A stretch of DNA of 64,000 nucleotides from the NCBI GenBank assembly GCA_020029535.1, contig JAIBJM010000005.1:1-64000 (forward strand), in the 5' to 3' direction. Positions 48,138 through 59,622 of the stretch are shown piece by piece. The first letter of the stretch is position 1. Each line of letters opens with the position of its first letter. Below the pieces are notes generated by a model. That model was given only the letters and a program-made list of their open reading frames with translations. It was not told where the DNA came from and did no database searches. Position numbers and translations under genes: made by a program. The DNA is from Gammaproteobacteria bacterium (GTDB lineage: Bacteria > Pseudomonadota > Gammaproteobacteria > Steroidobacterales > Steroidobacteraceae).

Positions 48138-48452
48138 TCAGTCTTCAGGCGCGATGGTCACGCGCAGGCCGGCCAGCGCCTCGGTCATCGTTATCTGGCA
48201 GGACAGTCGCGAGGTCTCGCGACGGTGACCCAGATCCTGCAGCATGTCGGTCTCGTCGGACATGGGCGCCGGCAGGCGGCTCACCCACTCGGGATCGATG
48301 TACACATGGCAGGTGGCGCAGGAGCACATGCCACCACAGATGGCGGTAACGCCATCGTCCATGTCGCGCAACGGCTCCATCAGCACATAACCGGCGGGAG
48401 CGTTCATCTCCAGTTCCTGACCGTCCCGGTTGATCACCTTCAGCAACGGCAT
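48138..48452 (-). CDS. [2Fe-2S] ferredoxin
   Basis: The 104-aa adrenodoxin-like ferredoxin has ligands in ICGGMCSCATCHVYI (C-x5-C-x2-C) and RLSCQI. The sequence PEWVSRLPAPMSDETDMLQD between them is of the bacterial P450/dioxygenase-partner type. It would pass electrons to an oxygenase, none of which is adjacent. It lies upstream of the RraB-like gene on the same strand. Confidence 0.92.
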   Translation of the reverse strand: MPLLKVINRDGQELEMNAPAGYVLMEPLRDMDDGVTAICGGMCSCATCHVYIDPEWVSRLPAPMSDETDMLQDLGHRRETSRLSCQITMTEALAGLRVTIAPED

Positions 48453-49324: not shown

Positions 49325-50827
49325 ATGATTCGTGCCCTTGCCCTGCTTGCAGTCCTGCTTTCCATGCCCGCCGTTGCGGGCAATGCATCGGCTCCGCTGC
49401 CGGTCGATCCCAGGGGCTTCATTGATGCGGAGCTGCAGGCACATCCGGGCCAAACCGGCTCCTACGTGCTGGAGCGCGGCGAACAGGCGTTGCTCGCGCG
49501 GGCCTGGCTGGTGGACCACGCCCGTCACAGCATCGAAGTGCAGTATTTCATCTGGAGTACCGACAACATCGGCATCCTCGCTTCCGAAGCACTGCTGCGC
49601 GCAGCCAACCGCGGTGTGAAGGTGCGGGTGATTGTGGACGATCTGCTGATGGATGCGCCGGACAAGACGCTGCTGGCGTTGGCGCACCACCCCGACATGG
49701 ATATCCGCATCTACAACCCGGTGCACTCGGTGGGCGTTCCCTGGTACCGGCGACTGCTGAATCTGGTCACGAACTTCCGTGGTGCCAACCAGCGCATGCA
49801 TGACAAGACGCTGATTGTTGATGGCGAGCTGGCCATAACCGGTGGCCGCAACATGGCTGATGAGTATTTCGACTATGACCACGCCTACAACTTCCGCGAT
49901 CGCGACGCGCTGGTGATTGGTGCCGTGGTACCGCAGATCCGTGCGAGCTTCGAGCGCTTCTGGGCCAGTGCTCTCAGCCAGCCAGTGGCAACGCTGTATA
50001 GTGCCCATTCGCTGATGCGCAAGCACGCCACGGTCATGGATGCAGAGGTCCAGCAGATCTACGCCGAACTGGGTGCCTATGCCTCGGACCGGCGCAACTT
50101 TGCACCCGACGTCCGCGGCGCCATCGATGCGATACCGGCGAACTTCCCGGCGCTGGCAGCGGCGCTGGTCTGGGGCCAAGTGGACTTCATCAGCGATGTG
50201 CCGGGCAAGAACGACGGCAAGGCGGGATTTGGCGGAGGCGGCCTGAGTACGGCGGCATTGGCGGCACTGCTGCAGGGCGCGCAGCGCGAGGTGCTGATCC
50301 AGTCTCCCTATCTGGTGCTCTCGGCTCCTGCCATGGAGTTGTTCGGCGCAATGATCACGCGCGGTGTGCGGGTGCGCATCAGCACCAACTCGCTGGCGTC
50401 GACAGACAATCTCCAGGCTTTCGGCGGTTATCGGGCACAGCGGCGCAAGCTCCTGCGCCTGGGGATCGATGTGCGCGAGTACAGGCCCGATCCGCTCGTC
50501 CAGCGTGAAGTGATGCAACGCTATGAGGCGCTGCGTGCAGAGGCGCCGGTGTTCGCATTGCACGCCAAGACCCTGGTGGTGGACCGCGCCGTGGTCTTCG
50601 TCGGGACCTACAACCTTGATCCACGCTCCGAGAACCTGAACACGGAAATGGGCGTGGTGATCCGCAATGCGGACCAGGCCGCCACGGTGGCAGCCGCCAT
50701 CGAGACCGACATGCTGTCTGGGAACAGCTGGAGCGCAGCCAGCGACAAGCCGGACCGCTTTGCGTCGTGGGGCAAGCGGTTTCGTGCCTGGTTCTGGGGC
50801 ATCATGCCGATCAAGGCGCTGCTGTAA
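49325..50827 (+). CDS. Phospholipase-D-superfamily enzyme (cardiolipin-synthase-like), secreted
   Basis: The 500-aa protein has a signal peptide (residues 1-19) and two complete HKD motifs: H159-x-K161 with D166 (HDKTLIVDGELAITGGRN) and H413-x-K415 with D420 (HAKTLVVDRAVVFVGTYN). Two motifs make one active site for phosphodiester transfer, as in ClsC-type synthases or phospholipases. A signal peptide suggests action at the periplasmic membrane face. TAGACT ends six bases before the ATG and no Shine-Dalgarno is seen. The next gene starts four bases after its stop, so it heads the cluster. Confidence 0.92.
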   Translation: MIRALALLAVLLSMPAVAGNASAPLPVDPRGFIDAELQAHPGQTGSYVLERGEQALLARAWLVDHARHSIEVQYFIWSTDNIGILASEALLRAANRGVKVRVIVDDLLMDAPDKTLLALAHHPDMDIRIYNPVHSVGVPWYRRLLNLVTNFRGANQRMHDKTLIVDGELAITGGRNMADEYFDYDHAYNFRDRDALVIGAVVPQIRASFERFWASALSQPVATLYSAHSLMRKHATVMDAEVQQIYAELGAYASDRRNFAPDVRGAIDAIPANFPALAAALVWGQVDFISDVPGKNDGKAGFGGGGLSTAALAALLQGAQREVLIQSPYLVLSAPAMELFGAMITRGVRVRISTNSLASTDNLQAFGGYRAQRRKLLRLGIDVREYRPDPLVQREVMQRYEALRAEAPVFALHAKTLVVDRAVVFVGTYNLDPRSENLNTEMGVVIRNADQAATVAAAIETDMLSGNSWSAASDKPDRFASWGKRFRAWFWGIMPIKALL

Positions 50828-50831
50828 TCCC

Positions 50832-51392
50832 ATGCCCACAACCAACCAGCTGCTGATCAACCTGATTCTTTACGGACTGCTGCCGCTGTGGGGCATCACC
50901 GGCTTCATTGACTGGTACTGCCATCGCGCCACTGGCATCGAACGTACCTCCGGCCTGCGGGAATCACTGATCCATTCGCTCATGGGTGTACAGCTCGGAA
51001 TTCCGATCATGCTCTGCCTGCTGTTCCAGGTGAACGTGCTGGTGCTGCTGATCTGCTTCGCTGCATTCCTGCTGCATGAGGCGGTGGCGCACTATGACGT
51101 GCACTACTCCGCGCCGAAGCGAACGATCAGCATCTGGGAGGTGCATGTCCACAACTACATGGCCACCATTCCGCTCTATCTGTTGATGCTGATTATGGTG
51201 CTTAATTGGGATGTGGTGCTGAAACTGGTTCATCTGCAGTGGGCGGGTCAGTTCACGCTGCGGCGATTGCCAGCGCCACAGGGTGGGTCCAGCTACCTGC
51301 GCGGCTACCTGCTGTTCATGTTCGTGTTGTGCGTAGTGCCATACATCGAAGAGAACCTGCGTTGCCTGCGGGCGCGCGGGCGCGCAGCTTGA
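50832..51392 (+). CDS. Histidine-rich polytopic membrane protein
   Basis: The 186-aa protein has about four to five spans (residues 7-26, 46-64, 65-82, 111-127, 157-172). Between them lie clustered His motifs: D27WYCH31, H82EAVAHYDVH91 (H-x4-H-x3-H) and H105VH107. The arrangement recalls membrane diiron hydroxylases or desaturases but is not an exact match, so no function is assigned. It is coupled to the phospholipase-D gene and overlaps the ketosynthase start (TTGA). Its place in the cluster suggests work on a lipid or acyl product. Confidence 0.75.
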   Translation: MPTTNQLLINLILYGLLPLWGITGFIDWYCHRATGIERTSGLRESLIHSLMGVQLGIPIMLCLLFQVNVLVLLICFAAFLLHEAVAHYDVHYSAPKRTISIWEVHVHNYMATIPLYLLMLIMVLNWDVVLKLVHLQWAGQFTLRRLPAPQGGSSYLRGYLLFMFVLCVVPYIEENLRCLRARGRAA

Positions 51393-52501
51393 GTGCCTAT
51401 GTCACAAGCACCGGCTCCTTCCTGCCCGGACCACCGATCGACAACGACCAGATCGAGGATATCCTCGGATTGATCGATGGCCGTCCCAGCCGTTTGAAGT
51501 CGCGCATCCTGAAGGCCAACGGCATCCGCACGCGGCACTACGCCATGGATCGGGAGCATCGCACCACCCACAGCAACACCGAGCTTGCAGTGGCTGCGGC
51601 CCGCCACTGCATGCAGGCTTCGCCCGTGCCGATGCGTTCGCTGCGACTGCTCAGCTGCGCGACCACCCAGGGTGATCTGGTCATTCCCGGCTTCGGCAGC
51701 ATGGTGCAGGCCGGGCTTGGTATGCCGGAGGTGGAGTTGCACACCACGCATGGCATCTGCTCCAGCGGCGTAATGGCGATCCGGGCGGCGGTGAATTCGT
51801 TGCGTGTCGGTGACCAGCCCAATGCGCTGGTGGTGGTCAGCGAGCTGGCCTCGCGGCTCTTCAAGCACACCCGCTACGAGGCGGCCGGCGGCCAGTTCAA
51901 CATGGATTTCGACGCGGAGTTCCTGCGCTGGATGCTTTCCGATGGCGCGGGCGCCTGGCTGCTGGAGCGCGAACCGCGCGGCCGCTGCCTGCGGGTGGAC
52001 TGGATCCGCAGCTATTCGCATGCTGATTCGTTGCCGGTGTGCATGAGCATCGGCCGTCCCACCGACAGCACCGACGGCCGCAGCTGGCAGGACTTTCCCA
52101 CCTATGCCGAGGCAGAAGCCGCCGGCGCATTGCTGATCCGCCAGGATGTGCGATTGCTGGACCACATCGTGAAACTGGGAGTGGACGGCGCGCTGCGCCT
52201 GATTGGCGAGGGCCTGCTGGACATGCAGCGGCTGGATCATCTGCTCTGCCACTATTCCTCGCATCACTTCCGCAGCCGCATCTTCGACATGCTGCAGATG
52301 TGCGGCGCCGGCGTGCCCGATGAAAAATGGTTCACCAACCTGTATACCAAGGGCAATACGGGCTGCGCCTCGATCCTGATCATGCTGGATGATTTCCTCA
52401 AGGAAGGCCGGGCGCAGCCTGGCGAGACCCTGTTGTGCGTGGTGCCGGAAAGCGGGCGCTTCAACATGGCCTACATGCATTTCACCGTGGTGGAGACCTG
52501 A
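51389..52501 (+). CDS. FabH-like beta-ketoacyl synthase III family enzyme
   Basis: The 370-aa thiolase-fold protein keeps the full KAS III triad: C124 in HGICSSGVMA, H288 in CHYSSHH and N323 in KGNTGCASI. It should thus form carbon-carbon bonds from an acyl thioester. It is not the housekeeping FabH: motifs around the triad differ and no fab genes are near. The start is TTG at 51389 (frame MSAYVTSTGSFLPG), overlapping the upstream stop. It overlaps the oxygenase gene by one base (TGATG). The substrate is unknown; no acyl carrier protein is encoded nearby. Confidence 0.88.
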   Translation: MSAYVTSTGSFLPGPPIDNDQIEDILGLIDGRPSRLKSRILKANGIRTRHYAMDREHRTTHSNTELAVAAARHCMQASPVPMRSLRLLSCATTQGDLVIPGFGSMVQAGLGMPEVELHTTHGICSSGVMAIRAAVNSLRVGDQPNALVVVSELASRLFKHTRYEAAGGQFNMDFDAEFLRWMLSDGAGAWLLEREPRGRCLRVDWIRSYSHADSLPVCMSIGRPTDSTDGRSWQDFPTYAEAEAAGALLIRQDVRLLDHIVKLGVDGALRLIGEGLLDMQRLDHLLCHYSSHHFRSRIFDMLQMCGAGVPDEKWFTNLYTKGNTGCASILIMLDDFLKEGRAQPGETLLCVVPESGRFNMAYMHFTVVET

Positions 52502-53205
52502 TGGCGGAGACCGTAGTCCTGGCGCGGCCGGAGCAGCTGTCCGAAGCAGGGCAAGCTGCATTGCGCGGGCTGATGCGCGCCTGGTTCGACTTCGAACGGC
52601 GCCTGTCGCGCGTGCCGATGATTCAGCGGCTGGAGATCGGTACCTTCACGAAGGCGGACTACCTGCAGCTGCTGTTGAACCTGCGCCAGCAGGTTGTCGA
52701 AGGCTCGCGCTGGATCAGCCGCTGCGCCTCGAGTTTCGATCGGGACCATGCGGATATCCGCTCGGTGATCCTCGGGCACGCGCATGAGGAGCATCGCGAC
52801 TATGAGGTGCTGGAGCACGACTACGTGACGGCCGGGGGCGATCTGGCAGCGATTCGTTCACACCTGCGCAATCCGGGTTCCGAAGCCCTGCATGGCTACA
52901 TGATGTATCGCGCCAGCGAACCGAATCCGGTCGGGCTGCTGGGCGCCATGTGGATCGTGGAAGGGCTGGGCGAGAAGATGGCGAAGGACTGGGCAATGCG
53001 AATCAGCGACCTGCCCGGTGTCGGTGAGGCCGGCACGCGCTTCTTGCGCTATCACGGCCAGAACGACCAGAACCATCTGAGCAAGCTCTATGCCCTGCTG
53101 GACCGATTGTGCACCAGCGAGGCAATTGCCGCGGATATCCTGCGCACGGCCGCCGTGGTAGGCCGGCTGTACGCGCTGCAGCTGGAGGAAGTCGATGTCG
53201 AGTGA
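52501..53205 (+). CDS. Haem-oxygenase-like diiron oxygenase
   Basis: The 234-aa helical protein fits the iron-containing redox enzyme family (TenA/UndA/CADD fold). Candidate ligands are E67, the H95-E96-E97-H98 segment, E105-H106, E154 (MWIVEGLGEK) and H185-x3-D189-x2-H192. That last spacing is the HxxxDxxH pattern of CADD-type diiron enzymes. Family members cleave or desaturate fatty acids and amino acids with O2. Coupling to a ketosynthase gene suggests oxidation of an acyl or beta-keto product. The precise reaction is unknown. Confidence 0.83.
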   Translation: MAETVVLARPEQLSEAGQAALRGLMRAWFDFERRLSRVPMIQRLEIGTFTKADYLQLLLNLRQQVVEGSRWISRCASSFDRDHADIRSVILGHAHEEHRDYEVLEHDYVTAGGDLAAIRSHLRNPGSEALHGYMMYRASEPNPVGLLGAMWIVEGLGEKMAKDWAMRISDLPGVGEAGTRFLRYHGQNDQNHLSKLYALLDRLCTSEAIAADILRTAAVVGRLYALQLEEVDVE

Positions 53206-54037
53206 TCCACGCGGACCCGTTCACAGCGCATACCTGCAGGCAATCGCGGTCGACAACTCGCTGCCCATCAGTCCGGCGGCCATCAAGCTGTGGATGCGTG
53301 ATCTCGAGAACCCGCTGCGCTGGATCGTGCGGCCGGTGCTGCAGTTGGTCTTCGCGGCGCTGTTGCACCTGACCTGGGCGCTCAAGCGTCTGCCACTGCC
53401 GCAGTTCCGTGCCCACGGCCTGCTGCAGCAGACGATCTGCGCCTTCTGCCGAAATTTCGTCACGCCCGAAGCCAACCAGCTGATCCTGCGGCATTTCGCC
53501 ACCGAGTCGAACCTGTTGAATTTCCTGCGCGATAACAGTGGTGGCTGCGTGCAGCCGCTGACGCTGTATCCACGGCGGATCGATGACATGCTACGCATGA
53601 CCTTCGTCGATCACGACCAGGAACTGTTCCGCATGATGCGTGACCTGGGACGCTGGAATCACGCGCGGGCCGCCGCTCGGGCTGCAGACCTCGACTGGAG
53701 CCACTGGCGGACCATCGACATCACCGATCAGGGACATCCACGGCGCTGGACGCAGGTACTCGACTTCGAGACCTCGCACGCGCTGTTCATGTGCCTGTTC
53801 TGCCTGCTGCTGAAGCGCGATGAATACCGCGACGCCATCAACGGTTTCAATCTCGATCAATCGATCGCGATCCGCATCGGCCAGCTGATCGGTGATCCGC
53901 GGCTGGCCGAGATGGCCTACAACAAGTATCCGCATTACATGGTCGGGCCATGGAACCTGGGGCAACGGTTCCTGATGCACGGATTTTTCACCGAATACCT
54001 GCACGAACGACTGGAACATTTCAGGGCTGCAGCTTGA
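53195..54037 (+). CDS. Unknown protein of the ketosynthase/oxygenase cluster
   Basis: No family is claimed for this 280-aa protein. It has a hydrophobic helix at about residues 46-62 (WIVRPVLQLVFAALLHLTWA), so it is probably membrane-associated. The rest is helical with His/acidic clusters (LRHFATESNLLNF, FVDHDQELFRMMRDLG, VLDFETSHALFMCLF). These could be metal ligands of another ferritin-like or HO-like domain; that is speculation. The ATG overlaps the oxygenase gene by 11 bases. It ends the coupled set of five genes. Confidence 0.75.
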   Translation: MSSDPRGPVHSAYLQAIAVDNSLPISPAAIKLWMRDLENPLRWIVRPVLQLVFAALLHLTWALKRLPLPQFRAHGLLQQTICAFCRNFVTPEANQLILRHFATESNLLNFLRDNSGGCVQPLTLYPRRIDDMLRMTFVDHDQELFRMMRDLGRWNHARAAARAADLDWSHWRTIDITDQGHPRRWTQVLDFETSHALFMCLFCLLLKRDEYRDAINGFNLDQSIAIRIGQLIGDPRLAEMAYNKYPHYMVGPWNLGQRFLMHGFFTEYLHERLEHFRAAA

Positions 54038-54126: not shown

Positions 54127-54993
54127 ATGGACACGCGGCAATCACCCTGCTCCCGGCAATTCCCGCGGGCGCGGCCTTCGATCCGGGTCGCAGCGCTCGC
54201 AGCTGCATTGCTGTCGTGCACTGGAGTCGCTGGCGCTGCGGATCCGCTCGAGGATCGCTTCGCGCTCACGCTGGGCACATATTTCCTGTCCTCGGACACC
54301 ACCCTGCGCGTCGACGAATTGCGCGGCGTGGGCGTAGGTACGGAATTCGAGGTCGAAGACGTGTTCCACTTCGACGAGGATACGGTCTTCCGTGTGGAGG
54401 GCGCGTGGCGATTTCGGCCGCGTCACAGCCTGCGCCTCATGTACTTCGAGAGCGACCGGACGCGCACCGACACCATCGACCGCAACATCGAGTTCGGCGA
54501 CGAATCCTTCCCGCTCGGGGCGTCGGCGACCATGCGCTTCGAATTCACCATCATGGAGCTGGCTTATCGCTACGCATTCCTGAAACGTGACAATCTCGAA
54601 CTCGCGGGCTCCTTCGGTGTTCACAACATCGAGTTCAAGACGGCGCTGCACGCCTCGATCGCATCACCCGGCTTGGGCAGTATCTCCGCGCAGGACGATG
54701 CCTCCACCGACGCGCCTTTGCCCGTGGTCGGGCTGGGTTTCACGTGGCGCATGGGCGAGAACATCTATCTGCAGGCGCATGCCCAGTACTTCCAGGTGAA
54801 GTACGGCGACATCGAAGGCAGCCTGCTGAACTACCAGGCAGGGGTGCTGTGGCAGTTCTCGCAGCATGTCGGCATGGGCGCGGCTTACAACCTGTTCGAC
54901 CTCGGCATCAAAGCGGACGCCGCCGACTCCTTCCGCGGCAAGCTCGACTGGCAATACGCAGGGCCACAGCTCTACCTGCGTGCGGCATTCTAG
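54127..54993 (+). CDS. Predicted outer-membrane beta-barrel protein
   Basis: The 288-aa protein has a long N-region with a signal peptide (hydrophobic RVAALAAALLSCTGVAGAAD, about residues 19-39). Regularly alternating beta strands follow (RFALTLGTYFLSSDTTLRVD, MGENIYLQAHAQYFQVKYGD) to a C-terminal aromatic residue (LYLRAAF), the BAM signal. It is therefore a small barrel with a size near OmpW/OmpA-type porins. It lies 89 bases after the lipid-like cluster and might be the exit route for its product, which is only inferred. Confidence 0.78.
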   Translation: MDTRQSPCSRQFPRARPSIRVAALAAALLSCTGVAGAADPLEDRFALTLGTYFLSSDTTLRVDELRGVGVGTEFEVEDVFHFDEDTVFRVEGAWRFRPRHSLRLMYFESDRTRTDTIDRNIEFGDESFPLGASATMRFEFTIMELAYRYAFLKRDNLELAGSFGVHNIEFKTALHASIASPGLGSISAQDDASTDAPLPVVGLGFTWRMGENIYLQAHAQYFQVKYGDIEGSLLNYQAGVLWQFSQHVGMGAAYNLFDLGIKADAADSFRGKLDWQYAGPQLYLRAAF

Positions 54994-55039: not shown

Positions 55040-55846
55040 ATGACGTCGAACACGCCGACACGGTCGCCGAGCTCACCTCGCCATGGCGTGGCGCGGGTGA
55101 TCTCAAAGATGGGTTTGGGTTCGCGAACACAGGCTGCGCAGTGGGTGAGCGCGGGGCGCGTTCGCGTCAACGGCCGCGTGGTTCACGATGCGGAATTTCC
55201 TGTCCGTCAGGGAGTGGATCGTGTCGACATTGATGGGCAGGTATCGACATCGGCGGGGCGACTGGTATTGATGTTGAACAAGCCGCGCGGTCTGGTTACC
55301 ACAGTGAAAGATGAGCAGGGCCGCGATACGGTCTACAGCTGCTTCGCAGGTGCGGATCTGCCGTGGCTGGCGCCGGTCGGACGTCTCGACAAGGCCAGTG
55401 AAGGACTGCTGCTGTTCACCAACGACCCCGCCTGGGCGGCTGACATCACTGATCCGAAGAGCGGGCAGTCAAAGACCTACCACGTGCAGATCGACAGGCT
55501 GCCGGACGCGGCCCTGCTCGCTTCGCTTGAGAACGGCGTCGCTGTGGGTGACGAATGCCTGACTGTGAAGTCGGCGCGATGCCTGCGCAGCGGGGACAAG
55601 AACTCGTGGCTGGAGATCATCCTGGACGAGGGACGCAACCGACAGATACGACGAATGCTGGCGGCCCTGGACGTGACGGTGCTGCGCCTGGTGCGCGTAG
55701 CTGTTGGTGGACTGAACCTCGGCGACCTGCCCAAGGGTCAGTGGCGGATGCTTACCGGGCCGGAAATCGATTCACTTACTCCGCGACCGGAGGCAGCGGT
55801 TCACCGCGGGCATACAACCACAGCTCACCCAGCGCGTGATGGATGA
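55040..55846 (+). CDS. Pseudouridine synthase, RsuA/RluB/E/F family
   Basis: The 268-aa enzyme has an S4 RNA-binding domain (GVARVISKMGLGSRTQAAQW, VSAGRVRVNGRVV) and a catalytic domain with the Asp in PVGRLDKASEGLLLFTND. Conserved NKPRGLVTT and DEGRNRQIRRMLAALDVTVL follow. The RsuA group modifies 16S or 23S rRNA; which member this is cannot be fixed. Its 3' end overlaps the convergent kinase gene by 71 bases, so transcription of the two may interfere. Confidence 0.9.
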   Translation: MTSNTPTRSPSSPRHGVARVISKMGLGSRTQAAQWVSAGRVRVNGRVVHDAEFPVRQGVDRVDIDGQVSTSAGRLVLMLNKPRGLVTTVKDEQGRDTVYSCFAGADLPWLAPVGRLDKASEGLLLFTNDPAWAADITDPKSGQSKTYHVQIDRLPDAALLASLENGVAVGDECLTVKSARCLRSGDKNSWLEIILDEGRNRQIRRMLAALDVTVLRLVRVAVGGLNLGDLPKGQWRMLTGPEIDSLTPRPEAAVHRGHTTTAHPARDG

Positions 55847-56606
55847 TGACGGCAGCTTCCAGCGCTGCGACACGTGGCGACAGTTGCGCGGCCTCGAGCA
55901 GCACGGCCTGCGCGGCGCGGGCCGCAGGATAGTAGGCCAGCACCGCGGCCACATCGAAGACCGGATCGGCCAGCTGTGCGTATTCCCAGTCCAGCAACCA
56001 CAGCCGCTCGCCGTCCAGGATATTGCCGTGCACCGGATCGCCGTGGACGATGACGCCCGGTTGTCGCTCCGCGGCCAGCGCCGCATCGGCCCGCTGGATC
56101 TTCCGCAACAGTCGCAGCACGCGGCGCGTGGTGTCGGTATCCGGTGGCTCGCGGCCACCGATGTAGCCGTGCGCAATGGACACCGGATCGAACGAGGCCA
56201 CCGCCGGCGGCGGCAGCCGATGCAGCTGCGCCAGCCGCTCGCCCAGCCGCTGCAGCTGCGCCGGATCCGCATAGTCCTGCGGCGTCCAGCAGCGGCCGGG
56301 CAGGAATTCGCACACCCATGCATCGAGCGCGGCCGACTTGGCGATAATGCGCGGCGCCAGACCGGCCGCGGCGGCTACTGAATGCAGTTGCAGTTCGCGC
56401 CATCGTTCGACACCGGGACGGCGCCAGTCCGGGCCGTCCAGCCGCAGCACGAAGCGACCCTCGGCCGTATCGACGCGCCATACCTCGTTGACACTGCCAC
56501 CGCGCAGCGGCTCGATGCGCAGCGGCGGCCCTTGCGCAGCGCCGGGCACCAGCGCCAGCGCCGCGGGCGGTATCAGGTGCCCTGCTGGCGGTAGCGCTTC
56601 AGCCAT
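55776..56606 (-). CDS. APH/choline-kinase-fold kinase (candidate thiamine kinase)
   Basis: The 276-aa protein has LRGGSVNEVWRVDTAEGRFV (nucleotide loop, about residue 34 on). The catalytic set is H188-G-D190 (VIVHGDPVHGNILDG) with N195, and D206 in LLDWEYAQLADPVFDVA. This is the APH/ChoK/ThiK fold. It is the last gene of the TPP-riboswitch operon, overlapping pnuT-like by 34 bases. Phosphorylation of imported thiamine or a precursor is therefore the most likely role. Pure sequence would equally allow choline or an amino sugar. Confidence 0.8.
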   Translation of the reverse strand: MAEALPPAGHLIPPAALALVPGAAQGPPLRIEPLRGGSVNEVWRVDTAEGRFVLRLDGPDWRRPGVERWRELQLHSVAAAAGLAPRIIAKSAALDAWVCEFLPGRCWTPQDYADPAQLQRLGERLAQLHRLPPPAVASFDPVSIAHGYIGGREPPDTDTTRRVLRLLRKIQRADAALAAERQPGVIVHGDPVHGNILDGERLWLLDWEYAQLADPVFDVAAVLAYYPAARAAQAVLLEAAQLSPRVAALEAAVIIHHALGELWLYARGEPLPPVAE

Positions 56607-57166
56607 GCCTGAAAACCAAAGACCGCCACGATCATGTAGCAGCCGAACAGTGCTGCGGTAAATGGATGATCCTGCTGCACGAACAGGAACACGCCCAGCG
56701 CATCGGCGGCTATCCAGTACAGCCAGTTCTGCAGCACCGAACGCGCCACCAGCCAGGTGGCCAGCAGACTGATGCCGGTGCACAGCGAATCCACCAGCGG
56801 CCAGGCGGCCTGCGTTTCGGCGGCCAGCCACTGCGCACTGAGCGCACTCAGCGACACGATGATCACCGCCGCCAGCAGATGTCGCGGCCAGCGCCAGCTG
56901 TAGACCCGGCCGCCCTCGTCATGGGCATTGCGCGTCCAGCTGTACCAGCCGTAGGCCGACATCGCCACATAGTAGGCCTGCAGCGCCGACTGCATCGGCA
57001 GCTGCGCGCGCGCTGCCAGCCAGACATAGATCGATGAACTGACGGCGCCCGCCACCCAGCCCCAGCGGTTGCGCCGTGCAATCAGCACCACGTAGACCAG
57101 CCCGGCCACCACAGCCACGGCCTCGAGCAACGAGACCTGCCGCAGCGCCTGCCAGGTCTCGTTCAC
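56573..57166 (-). CDS. PnuC-family transporter, probably thiamine (PnuT-like)
   Basis: The 197-aa protein has seven predicted spans and the PnuC-family signatures NRWGWVAGAVSSSIYVWLAA, YYVAMSAYGWYSW and NWLYWIAADALGVFLF. PnuC proteins facilitate vitamin uptake (nicotinamide riboside, riboflavin, thiamine), with trapping by a kinase. Here the riboswitch, the small binding-type protein and the kinase in the same operon point to thiamine (PnuT). It overlaps the upstream gene by four bases and the kinase gene by 34. Confidence 0.88.
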   Translation of the reverse strand: MNETWQALRQVSLLEAVAVVAGLVYVVLIARRNRWGWVAGAVSSSIYVWLAARAQLPMQSALQAYYVAMSAYGWYSWTRNAHDEGGRVYSWRWPRHLLAAVIIVSLSALSAQWLAAETQAAWPLVDSLCTGISLLATWLVARSVLQNWLYWIAADALGVFLFVQQDHPFTAALFGCYMIVAVFGFQAWLKRYRQQGT

Positions 57167-57414
57167 CGTGCGGCGGCCAGCGGCCCCAGCACCTTCATCA
57201 CGAACACCGCCTTGTCGTTGTCGGCAAAGCTGCGGCGCATCTCGGCGTTGAGCAGAGGCATCAGCCGGTCGAACTCGCCGAAGATCTGCGTGCTCATGCT
57301 GTTGGTGACCACGCGCAGCCCGCCATGCGCATTGATGCGATCGATGAAGGACTGGATCGGCGGAATGTAGTCGGGGTTCAACGGATACAGGCTGATCTCG
57401 ACGCCGATTTCCAT
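57163..57414 (-). CDS. Small thiamine-binding-type protein (MTH1187/YkoF-like fold)
   Basis: The 83-aa protein reads MEIGVEISLYPLNPDYIPPI ... VVTNSMSTQIFGEFDRLMPL ending FVMKVLGPLAAAR. The ferredoxin-like pattern and the 'SLYPL ... TNSMSTQIFGE' signature fit the YkoF/MTH1187 group, members of which bind thiamine or HMP. A GTG-CAT-ATG run offers two starts; ATG at 57414 was taken. It lies 7 bases after the TonB receptor stop and overlaps the PnuC-type gene by four bases. Confidence 0.75.
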   Translation of the reverse strand: MEIGVEISLYPLNPDYIPPIQSFIDRINAHGGLRVVTNSMSTQIFGEFDRLMPLLNAEMRRSFADNDKAVFVMKVLGPLAAAR

Positions 57415-57421
57415 ATGCACC

Positions 57422-59536
57422 TCACTGGCCGGGCTGGTAGCGGATCGTAATGCCGAACTGTCGCGGTTCGCCACGCTGCTCATACCGCTTGAGGGGAAAG
57501 TCCGGCGGTTCATTAACGAAATAGAAGGCGTGCACCGCGTAGTCTTCGTCAAACAGGTTGCGTACCCACAGACTGGCATCCCAGGCGCTGCGCGCATAGC
57601 CGAGGCGCAGGTTCACCAGCCGGCGCGCGTCCAGCTGCTGATCGTGGCTGGCGCTGGCGTACAGCGCCGACTGCCCTTGCACATCCACACGTCCGTACCA
57701 TCCGGACGGATGCCGATAGGCTGCATGCAGTGCAGCCTGCAGCCGCGGCGCATATTCCTGCTCACGCCCGGCCAGATCACGCACCGCCCCCTGCTGATCG
57801 AGGTAGCTGAATTCCAGATAGCGCGCGCGCAGCGCGCCAAGGCTGCCACCCAGCTGCCAGCGCGGCGCCGGCTGCCACTCGAGCGACGCTTCGAGACCGA
57901 AATTCTCGGCGCGTGCCGCATTGTCGGTATAGAACTGGTAGGTCAGCGGATCGAAGGGATCGGTCTGCACCGAGGTACTGACCTGCTGATCCATGCGCCG
58001 CATGTAGAACAGTGCGGCCTGCCAATTGAGTGTCGCCGCGGCATTGCCGCCCTTGCGGCCAACTTCCAGATTCCACAGGTATTCGGGACGGAACTGTCGC
58101 CGTTCGGCCGGAATCGCGGTGCCGATGTTGAAGCCGCCGGCCTTGTAGCCGCGTGACAGCGTCAGGTAGTCCAGATGCCGTTCACCGATGCGCGTCAGCG
58201 ACAGATGGCCGCCCAGCATGCTGTCGGCGGGCGAAAAGTCGCTGCCGTCGCTGTCGGTATAGTCGGCATCGCGGCGTTCGCCGCGCAGCCCCATGCCCAA
58301 CCACAGCTCCCTGCCCAGCTGCCAGTCCAGCTGCGCATACAGCGCCTCGTTGACAGCGCGGTAGCGGCTGTCGATCTGCCGATACAGCGCGCCGTTGTAG
58401 TGATCGATCTGCTGATTCTGCTCACGCAGTCGCTGCGCATAGGCACCCAGCAGCCAGCGCGCGCGACCGAACAGCAGATGATCGTCATCGCCGATGAAGC
58501 GCAGATCCTCGGCCAGCGTGTTGCGCTGCCGGTCGGTACGCGAGACGAAGTCGTACGGTACGCACAGCGAGGGATCGGGCACGCAGGCCGGGGTGGCCGC
58601 CCAGTAGGCGTCGTTGCCCCAGTCACCGTCAAACGAGAACACGATGTCGGAATCCGCGGCACTGGTGACGCTGCGCACTTCGCCCCAGCCGGTGGCGTAG
58701 TTGAGCCGCAACGCAGCGCCATTGGAGCGCTGCGCATCTCGGCCGGGCTGGTCCGACTGTGAAAGGCGCGAATTGTCCACCGACCAGGCGTCGTAGCCAT
58801 TGTCCAGATTCACGTGCATCAGCGTCAGCTGCGCACGCAGTGCGCCGAACTGCCGCACCAGCTTGCCGCGCAGCGTGGATTCATCGAAGCCATTGGTGTC
58901 ATCGCGACCGAGAAACACGTCGCGCCGGAAGCCATCGGACCGGTATTTCTGCGCCACCAGTCGCCAGCCGCCCGTCGCGCTGCCATCGCCGGCCGCCAGC
59001 GCCAGCGCGCGCGTGCCGTAGTCGCCCAATGTGGCTTCGCCCGACAGTTCCGGCTGCATGCCCGGATCGCGGGTGCGCAGCGCAATCAGGCCGGCCAGCG
59101 CATTGGCGCCATAGGCGGTGCCCTGCGGGCCGCGCAGCACTTCGATCTGCGCCACATCGAACAGCGTGGCCGGCATCGCCACGCCGGAGAAATCGATGTC
59201 ATCGATCAGGAAACCCACCGAGGGATTGGGCGCACCCTGGTACTGCTCCTGCTCGCCCACGCCGCGCAGCTGGAAGTAGCGCGGCCGCGAGGTGCCGCCG
59301 GCCGCGCTGAGATCGGGCACCATGCCGAGAACGTCGGCGAAATGTTCGACGCCAGCCTCGCGGAGTGCGGTTGAATCCAGCACGGTGACACTGGCCGGCG
59401 TCTGTGCCACTGGCGCCGGACGCAGGCTGGCGCTGATGACCACCTCCGCCAGTTGCGGCTCGGCATCCTGCGCCTGTGCGAAGGCAGACAGCAACAACGC
59501 CGCGAACGGCGCACTGGATATGCAATGTTTGATCAT
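57422..59536 (-). CDS. TonB-dependent receptor under TPP riboswitch control
   Basis: The 704-aa receptor has a signal peptide (residues 1-21, ending AFAQAQD), the TonB box region (LAEVVISASLRPA), a plug with VAQIEVLRGPQGTAYGANAL and a complete beta-barrel ending FGITIRYQPGQ. Riboswitch control and its downstream genes indicate uptake of thiamine or a thiamine precursor across the outer membrane. This is a predicted receptor class in proteobacteria, with the ligand inferred. The ATG at 59536 lies 8 bases after the riboswitch 3' end, and its ribosome-binding region is partly inside the RNA element. Confidence 0.92.
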   Translation of the reverse strand: MIKHCISSAPFAALLLSAFAQAQDAEPQLAEVVISASLRPAPVAQTPASVTVLDSTALREAGVEHFADVLGMVPDLSAAGGTSRPRYFQLRGVGEQEQYQGAPNPSVGFLIDDIDFSGVAMPATLFDVAQIEVLRGPQGTAYGANALAGLIALRTRDPGMQPELSGEATLGDYGTRALALAAGDGSATGGWRLVAQKYRSDGFRRDVFLGRDDTNGFDESTLRGKLVRQFGALRAQLTLMHVNLDNGYDAWSVDNSRLSQSDQPGRDAQRSNGAALRLNYATGWGEVRSVTSAADSDIVFSFDGDWGNDAYWAATPACVPDPSLCVPYDFVSRTDRQRNTLAEDLRFIGDDDHLLFGRARWLLGAYAQRLREQNQQIDHYNGALYRQIDSRYRAVNEALYAQLDWQLGRELWLGMGLRGERRDADYTDSDGSDFSPADSMLGGHLSLTRIGERHLDYLTLSRGYKAGGFNIGTAIPAERRQFRPEYLWNLEVGRKGGNAAATLNWQAALFYMRRMDQQVSTSVQTDPFDPLTYQFYTDNAARAENFGLEASLEWQPAPRWQLGGSLGALRARYLEFSYLDQQGAVRDLAGREQEYAPRLQAALHAAYRHPSGWYGRVDVQGQSALYASASHDQQLDARRLVNLRLGYARSAWDASLWVRNLFDEDYAVHAFYFVNEPPDFPLKRYEQRGEPRQFGITIRYQPGQ

Positions 59537-59544
59537 CGACCTGC

Positions 59545-59622
59545 TCCCTACGCCGGTACTAGCCGGATCAGGTTCAACGGGTTCACCGCTACGCGGCATC
59601 TCAGGCCCGAAGGCCACCCCAA
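59545..59622 (-). promoter_or_regulatory. TPP (THI-element) riboswitch
   Basis: Read on the minus strand, the hallmark blocks occur in order: GGGGTG (5' P1/P2), CTGAGAT, ACCCGTTGAACCTGATCCGG and the 3' end GTACCGGCGTAGGGA. The last block overlaps the GGGAGCAGG ribosome-binding region just before the receptor ATG. Control should therefore act on translation initiation: TPP binding closes the ribosome-binding site and lowers the whole salvage operon. Confidence 0.96.

Follow-up and report, generated by a model that had tools for sequence, protein, structure and literature searches.

The subject of this study is a five-gene cluster on the forward strand of the window, by which we mean the whole 64,000-nucleotide stretch of contig JAIBJM010000005.1 that was analysed (a member of the family Steroidobacteraceae; assembly GCA_020029535.1, 95% complete, referred to here as genome G000). 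The cluster occupies positions 49325-54037 and encodes a phospholipase D (PLD) protein, a membrane protein of 186 amino acids (aa), a ketosynthase (KS), a haem-oxygenase-like protein (HO), and a DUF6999 protein (Table 1). The open reading frames (ORFs) were read straight from the window sequence. An earlier sequence-only reading had reported five tightly packed genes with spacings of +4, -4, -1, and -11 bases, and these values proved exact. The TTG start codon of the KS gene overlaps the stop codon of the 186-aa gene by 4 bases, and the same -4 overlap was seen in most relatives (L012-L017). The conserved core of the cluster is four genes, those for the 186-aa protein, KS, HO, and DUF6999.

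Table 1. Genes of the cluster and the adjoining beta-barrel gene in the window.
Product	Position	Strand	Basis
PLD (HKD) protein, cardiolipin-synthase-like, signal-peptide-like N-terminus	49325..50827	+	Pfam PLDc_2, 4.5e-35
186-aa membrane protein, unnamed family	50832..51392	+	helical model, pLDDT 85.9; family alignment
KS, 370 aa, TTG start, clade beside StlD/DarB	51389..52501	+	NCBIfam score, tree, triad
HO, 234 aa, probable dimetal oxidase	52501..53205	+	PF14518, 3.6e-7
DUF6999 protein (PF22523), 280 aa, helical	53195..54037	+	PF22523, 1.2e-91; alignment of 13
Outer-membrane beta-barrel protein, weakly tied to cluster	54127..54993	+	OMP_b-brl, 8.4e-6, under cut-off

Whole-genome searches based on DUF6999 gave matches in 6 of the 274 genomes searched in the class and in 9 of the 398 searched in the phylum, together 13 distinct genomes. 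With the additional DUF6999 records (one plasmid and six contigs), the sample comprised 13 genomes and 7 records. The KS and HO genes adjoined DUF6999 in 18 of these 20, all of which had been found via DUF6999 alone; the exceptions were G074 and the fragmentary G052. The homologs therefore stay together, a check that the sequence-only reading had proposed. Searches from other members of the cluster led to the same place. Both strong matches of the 186-aa protein fell in the same cluster. StlD/DarB-type KS were found in 21 genomes. In 16 of them the score passed the family cut-off; in the other five (G000, G019, G077, G224, and G684) it fell short, and each of these five KS was in a KS-HO-DUF6999 locus. 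In the Myxococcota metagenome-assembled genome (MAG) that holds L016, the DUF6999 gene is divergently oriented and still adjacent to KS-HO; therefore, the linkage has outlived a rearrangement. The cluster may have a patchy distribution in Pseudomonadota and possibly also in Myxococcota. Two DUF6999 genes were noted individually. The G074 gene (L020:7889-8947) lies without KS or HO beside a transposase gene that looks insertion sequence-like by eye, and is possibly a solo or relic copy. In a Granulosicoccaceae MAG, the gene at L017:2849-3679 carries one in-frame stop, with the remainder reading through and close relatives intact.

The loci fall mainly into two versions. In version A (the window, L011-L017, L036, and L041), the gene order is membrane protein, KS, HO, and DUF6999. 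In version F (L018, L019, and L030-L034), KS and HO form one fusion protein of approximately 640 aa (for example at L018:5328-7256), followed by DUF6999; the 186-aa protein is absent, and a fatty acid desaturase and a fatty acid hydroxylase are encoded upstream in five and four of the seven loci, respectively. In L021 and L035, KS, HO, and DUF6999 are separate genes and the 186-aa protein is lacking. The fusion in seven loci makes it very probable that KS and HO act in sequence on one substrate.

The sequence-only reading had described the KS as FabH-like. The enzyme is a ketosynthase with the C124, H288, and N323 triad, which was invariant in 38 of 38 aligned KS, but the label is too loose and the protein belongs to the StlD/DarB superfamily. 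Ketosynthases of the StlD/DarB type make cyclohexanediones and dialkylresorcinols. The window KS scored 367.9 bits against the NCBIfam StlD/DarB subfamily, under the cut-off of 450 and far above its scores to FabH models. The five HO-linked KS were all below this cut-off and the 16 Dar-type KS were all above it. The closest solved structure was StlD (E 4e-73), and FabH-type matches in the PDB were far lower. In a maximum likelihood tree of 38 KS (OleA and PpyS not included; rooting uncertain, with FabH as a distant long branch), support was 100/98 for the version A KS, 100/100 for version F, and 95/89 for the two together, and DarB and StlD formed a separate group (98/95). By sequence, the HO-linked KS are a clade of their own beside StlD/DarB. 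The groups differ in specific residues, some of them near the active site; for example, the HO-linked KS have C287 where the others have a Pro immediately preceding the catalytic His, and F102 in place of a His. A housekeeping FabH was ruled out as the identity of the window KS, as the tree sets the enzyme apart from the FabH branch and a different gene of the genome is of FabH type (G000:C16; 30% identical to the KS and on a long separate branch). Grouping with housekeeping FabH, which the sequence-only reading had named as a possible refutation, did not occur. A further KS near the HO-linked clade was noted on a Streptomyces linear plasmid (L064:7703-17092) together with acyl carrier proteins (ACPs), a P450, an FAD monooxygenase, and FabF; it perhaps belongs to another uncharacterized pathway.

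One of the closest known systems is the DarAB cluster, where dialkylresorcinol formation depends on the KS DarB for cyclization and on DarA for aromatization (PMC3949708, PMC3992019). DarA was encoded directly upstream of DarB in all five Dar loci examined. The two systems have in common the KS superfamily, an intact Cys-His-Asn triad, and one dedicated oxidative partner encoded adjacent to the KS. In contrast to DarAB, the window KS belongs to a clade of its own and scores under the family cut-off, its partner is HO-like rather than flavodoxin-like and sometimes fused to it, and the cluster adds DUF6999 and a membrane protein and has no ACP gene. DarA was present in 7 of 7 DarB genomes. Among the 13 KS-HO genomes, one had DarA, on a different contig, and it was not found in the 95% complete assembly of G000. 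Conversely, an HO-profile search of 16 DarB genomes gave nothing in 14 and weak unlinked matches in two. With DarA lacking in 12 of the 13 KS-HO genomes and HO nearly absent from DarB genomes, HO appears to take the place of DarA.

HO passed the PF14518 gathering score and gave a profile match to 3dde (7e-12). E67, H93, E97, D100, E154, H185, D189, and H192 were invariant in 14 of 14 HO of both versions; H93, E97, and D100 had not been listed by the sequence-only reading. The ligand motif common to published dimetal HO-like oxidases is E-H-E-H-(D/E)-H (PMC11363339). In alignments to the CADD-type family (weak, E 0.026) and to 3dde, E97, E154, H185, D189, and H192 fell on ligand positions. HO shares the PF14518 fold family and the conserved E97 with UndA, CADD, SznF, FlcD, and DtpC, and E154 and H185-xxx-D189-xx-H192 with CADD-type proteins. 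Unlike known HO-like dimetal oxidases, it has D100 for the usual His of the first core helix, with H93 one turn before, and its partner, sometimes fused to it, is a ketosynthase, a combination for which the open-access literature searched gave no paper. A metal site is likely from these alignments, possibly with a variant ligand set. A 2Fe-2S ferredoxin gene (48138-48452, minus strand), approximately 0.9 kb upstream of the cluster, could serve a diiron enzyme; no homolog of it was found beside the cluster in related loci.

The DUF6999 protein matched PF22523 with 307 bits against a gathering score of 27. R99-H100, H140-D141, D190, N216, D221, H262, and E267 were invariant in the alignment, which includes both versions, and this set resembles a metal site. 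The structure model was poor (pLDDT 59.6), no fold match reached a Z of 5 or more, and no solved structural relative was found. The possibility that DUF6999 is a diverged HO was rejected by a negative profile comparison.

The 186-aa protein matched no Pfam or NCBIfam family, and a weak-threshold Pfam scan of its family gave chance matches only. Fold matches of its model were generic helix bundles within noise, and Foldseek returned nothing at E<=0.001. In the family, D27, H31, R32, E44, H48, H82, D89, R97, E103, H107, and E174 were identical in 15 of 15 aligned members, and H105 was conserved. All residues that the sequence-only reading had cited for the cluster are present in the window proteins; of those in the membrane protein, H91 is not conserved and H87 is kept in the KS-linked subfamily only, and R32, E44, H48, D89, R97, E103, and E174 had not been listed. 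Judging by the predicted helix ends, D27/H31, H48, H82/D89, E103/H107, and E174 would probably line up on the same face of the membrane, an arrangement like that of His-rich membrane oxygenases. Relatives in Erwinia and Burkholderia plasmids adjoin Mn catalase and ferritin-like genes, with no KS nearby, and those of Erwinia also adjoin a general stress protein gene; further relatives sit among unrelated genes. The window protein shares with this unnamed stress-linked membrane family the signatures D-x3-HR, E-x3-H, H-x6-D, E-x-H-x-H, and P-Y-x-EE. The KS-linked members differ from the stress-linked ones in having H87 as well and in being part of a biosynthetic operon. The role of the family is not specific to the KS-HO pathway, because the family also occurs without KS and, in some plasmids, beside stress genes. 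Among these relatives (L079:5935-6513, L080:5938-6489, and L081-L084), those of Erwinia and Pantoea plasmids are labeled 'diguanylate cyclase' or hypothetical despite the metal-site-like His/Asp/Glu set.

The window PLD has two HKD motifs and matched PLDc (Pfam) in two stretches, and scored under the NCBIfam Cls equivalog cut-offs (e.g., 97.8 versus 787 bits). PLD is a recurrent yet movable neighbor: it is upstream in the window, whereas in L014 and L015 the gene for a protein 56% identical to it comes immediately after DUF6999. Another PLD, 36% identical, precedes the hydroxylase in L031; PLD thus occurs in both versions. In L035, DUF6999 is directly followed by an Aas-like protein (acyl-ACP ligase) that combines a major facilitator superfamily domain, an acyltransferase, and an AMP ligase. 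PLD, the fatty acid hydroxylase and desaturase, and the Aas-like protein all point to lipids, a small-sample pattern and not a statistical test, and they bear out the link to lipids that had been claimed earlier. The suggestion that the beta-barrel protein exports the product is weakly supported; a homolog lies near the cluster in one other locus only (L012). Farther downstream (55776-59617, minus strand), TonB-receptor-like, 144-aa, PnuC-like, and kinase-like genes lie in a row and by eye have the look of a vitamin (perhaps thiamine) uptake and salvage cluster.

We propose that the cluster encodes a lipid pathway built on a two-step core, KS then HO, with tailoring by the other genes, and assign this reading a probability of roughly 45%. 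Its starting points are direct observations: the linkage, the fusion, the KS clade with its intact triad, the absence of DarA, and the conserved residues of metal-ligand type. In the proposed pathway, KS would join two acyl thioesters in the manner of DarB/StlD, holding one chain on C124 with the assistance of H288 and N323 and taking a second fatty-acyl thioester. HO, a probable dimetal oxidase, would use O2 directly on the KS product, for example in an oxidative decarboxylation or aromatization, and would stand where flavodoxin-like DarA stands in dialkylresorcinol clusters. The product would be a two-chain lipid of phenolic type or a ketone. Tailoring of this product, or its retention at the membrane, would fall to DUF6999 and the 186-aa protein, or to the fatty acid hydroxylase and desaturase in the other version, and a phospholipid head group may be added or swapped by PLD. 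Because of the lipid-enzyme neighbors and the membrane protein, the product is expected in or at the membrane. The sequence-only reading had likewise supposed that an acyl chain is made, oxidatively cut or otherwise oxidized, and placed on or in a membrane lipid. The conserved KS-oxygenase unit and the lipid link agree with this; cutting is one of several reactions open to HO, and placement in a membrane lipid is inference only.

Several points weigh against the proposed pathway. Every reaction in it, and the product, is inferred from the genes. The KS is under the StlD/DarB cut-off, differs near the catalytic His, and may not form a ring. The second ligand position of HO is D100 and not His, the conserved H93 being one to two turns earlier, so that the dimetal site is putative. 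PLD adjoins the cluster in a minority of loci, and the membrane-protein family is also found outside the pathway among stress genes. As for the product, a dialkylresorcinol-like ring, a ketone, and a modified fatty acid fit the sequence alike.

An olefin or ketone route is possible but unlikely. Here, KS would condense its substrates head-to-head to a linear beta-keto acid, as OleA or PpyS does, and HO would decarboxylate or desaturate it to a ringless long-chain ketone, enone, or hydrocarbon. UndA, an HO-like fatty acid decarboxylase (PMC13108848), is the precedent, and the fold and ligand pattern of HO, the KS-HO fusion, and the absence of a DarA-like aromatase from 12 of 13 genomes are consistent with it; the grouping of KS beside StlD/DarB, in a tree without OleA and PpyS, argues against it. 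Membrane fatty acid tailoring is less likely still: KS would start or extend a special fatty acid, which HO, DUF6999, and the membrane protein would desaturate or hydroxylate for phospholipid, with PLD making a cardiolipin-type lipid. The hydroxylase and desaturase neighbors of the fused version, the Aas-like gene directly 3' of DUF6999 in L035, and the presence of PLD in both versions would fit. Against it, the tree places the KS clearly apart from FabH, and the enzyme matches FabH-type structures far less well than StlD.

It is improbable that the cluster is a stress-protection module, making a lipid or redox factor against desiccation or oxidative stress. In Acinetobacter, the HO-like DtpC is co-transcribed with katE and protects dried cells (PMC13232832), and HO could act similarly; relatives of the membrane protein have genes for Mn catalase, ferritin-like, and general stress proteins as neighbors. 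However, the KS-linked membrane subfamily is distinct in its extra H87, and no recurring stress genes were seen around the cluster itself in related loci. A protective role for the lipid is nevertheless plausible by analogy, because both the membrane family and DtpC occur in stress settings. Despite the 368 bits of the KS to the StlD/DarB subfamily, a cluster of the ordinary dialkylresorcinol (dar) or flexirubin type was ruled out as highly improbable, since the KS is outside the DarB/StlD group in the tree, the genome lacks DarA, and the partner genes are unrelated.

No description of DUF6999, the KS-HO pair or fusion, or the whole gene set was found in the open-access literature (most subscription journals were outside the search), which agrees with the earlier statement that no described pathway has this gene set. 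The Pbo/phaseolotoxin cluster was compared as a candidate match, and its gene content differs. The parts come from known superfamilies, but neither their combination nor the KS clade appears to have been described. We suggest tentatively, at somewhat less than even odds, that an undescribed pair of KS and HO oxidase, fused in some bacteria, condenses two acyl chains and oxidizes the product and, together with a third dedicated enzyme, DUF6999, makes an unreported lipid class. If so, the two-step pathway proposed here would be a new partnership of a ketosynthase and a diiron oxidase, and the natural fusion would make the order of steps directly testable. It would provide the first context for the uncharacterized DUF6999 and for an unnamed membrane family with a metal-site-like residue set, and would predict a new lipid in cultivable bacteria, such as Pseudoalteromonas sp. 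THAF3, a strain that has the cluster on a plasmid.

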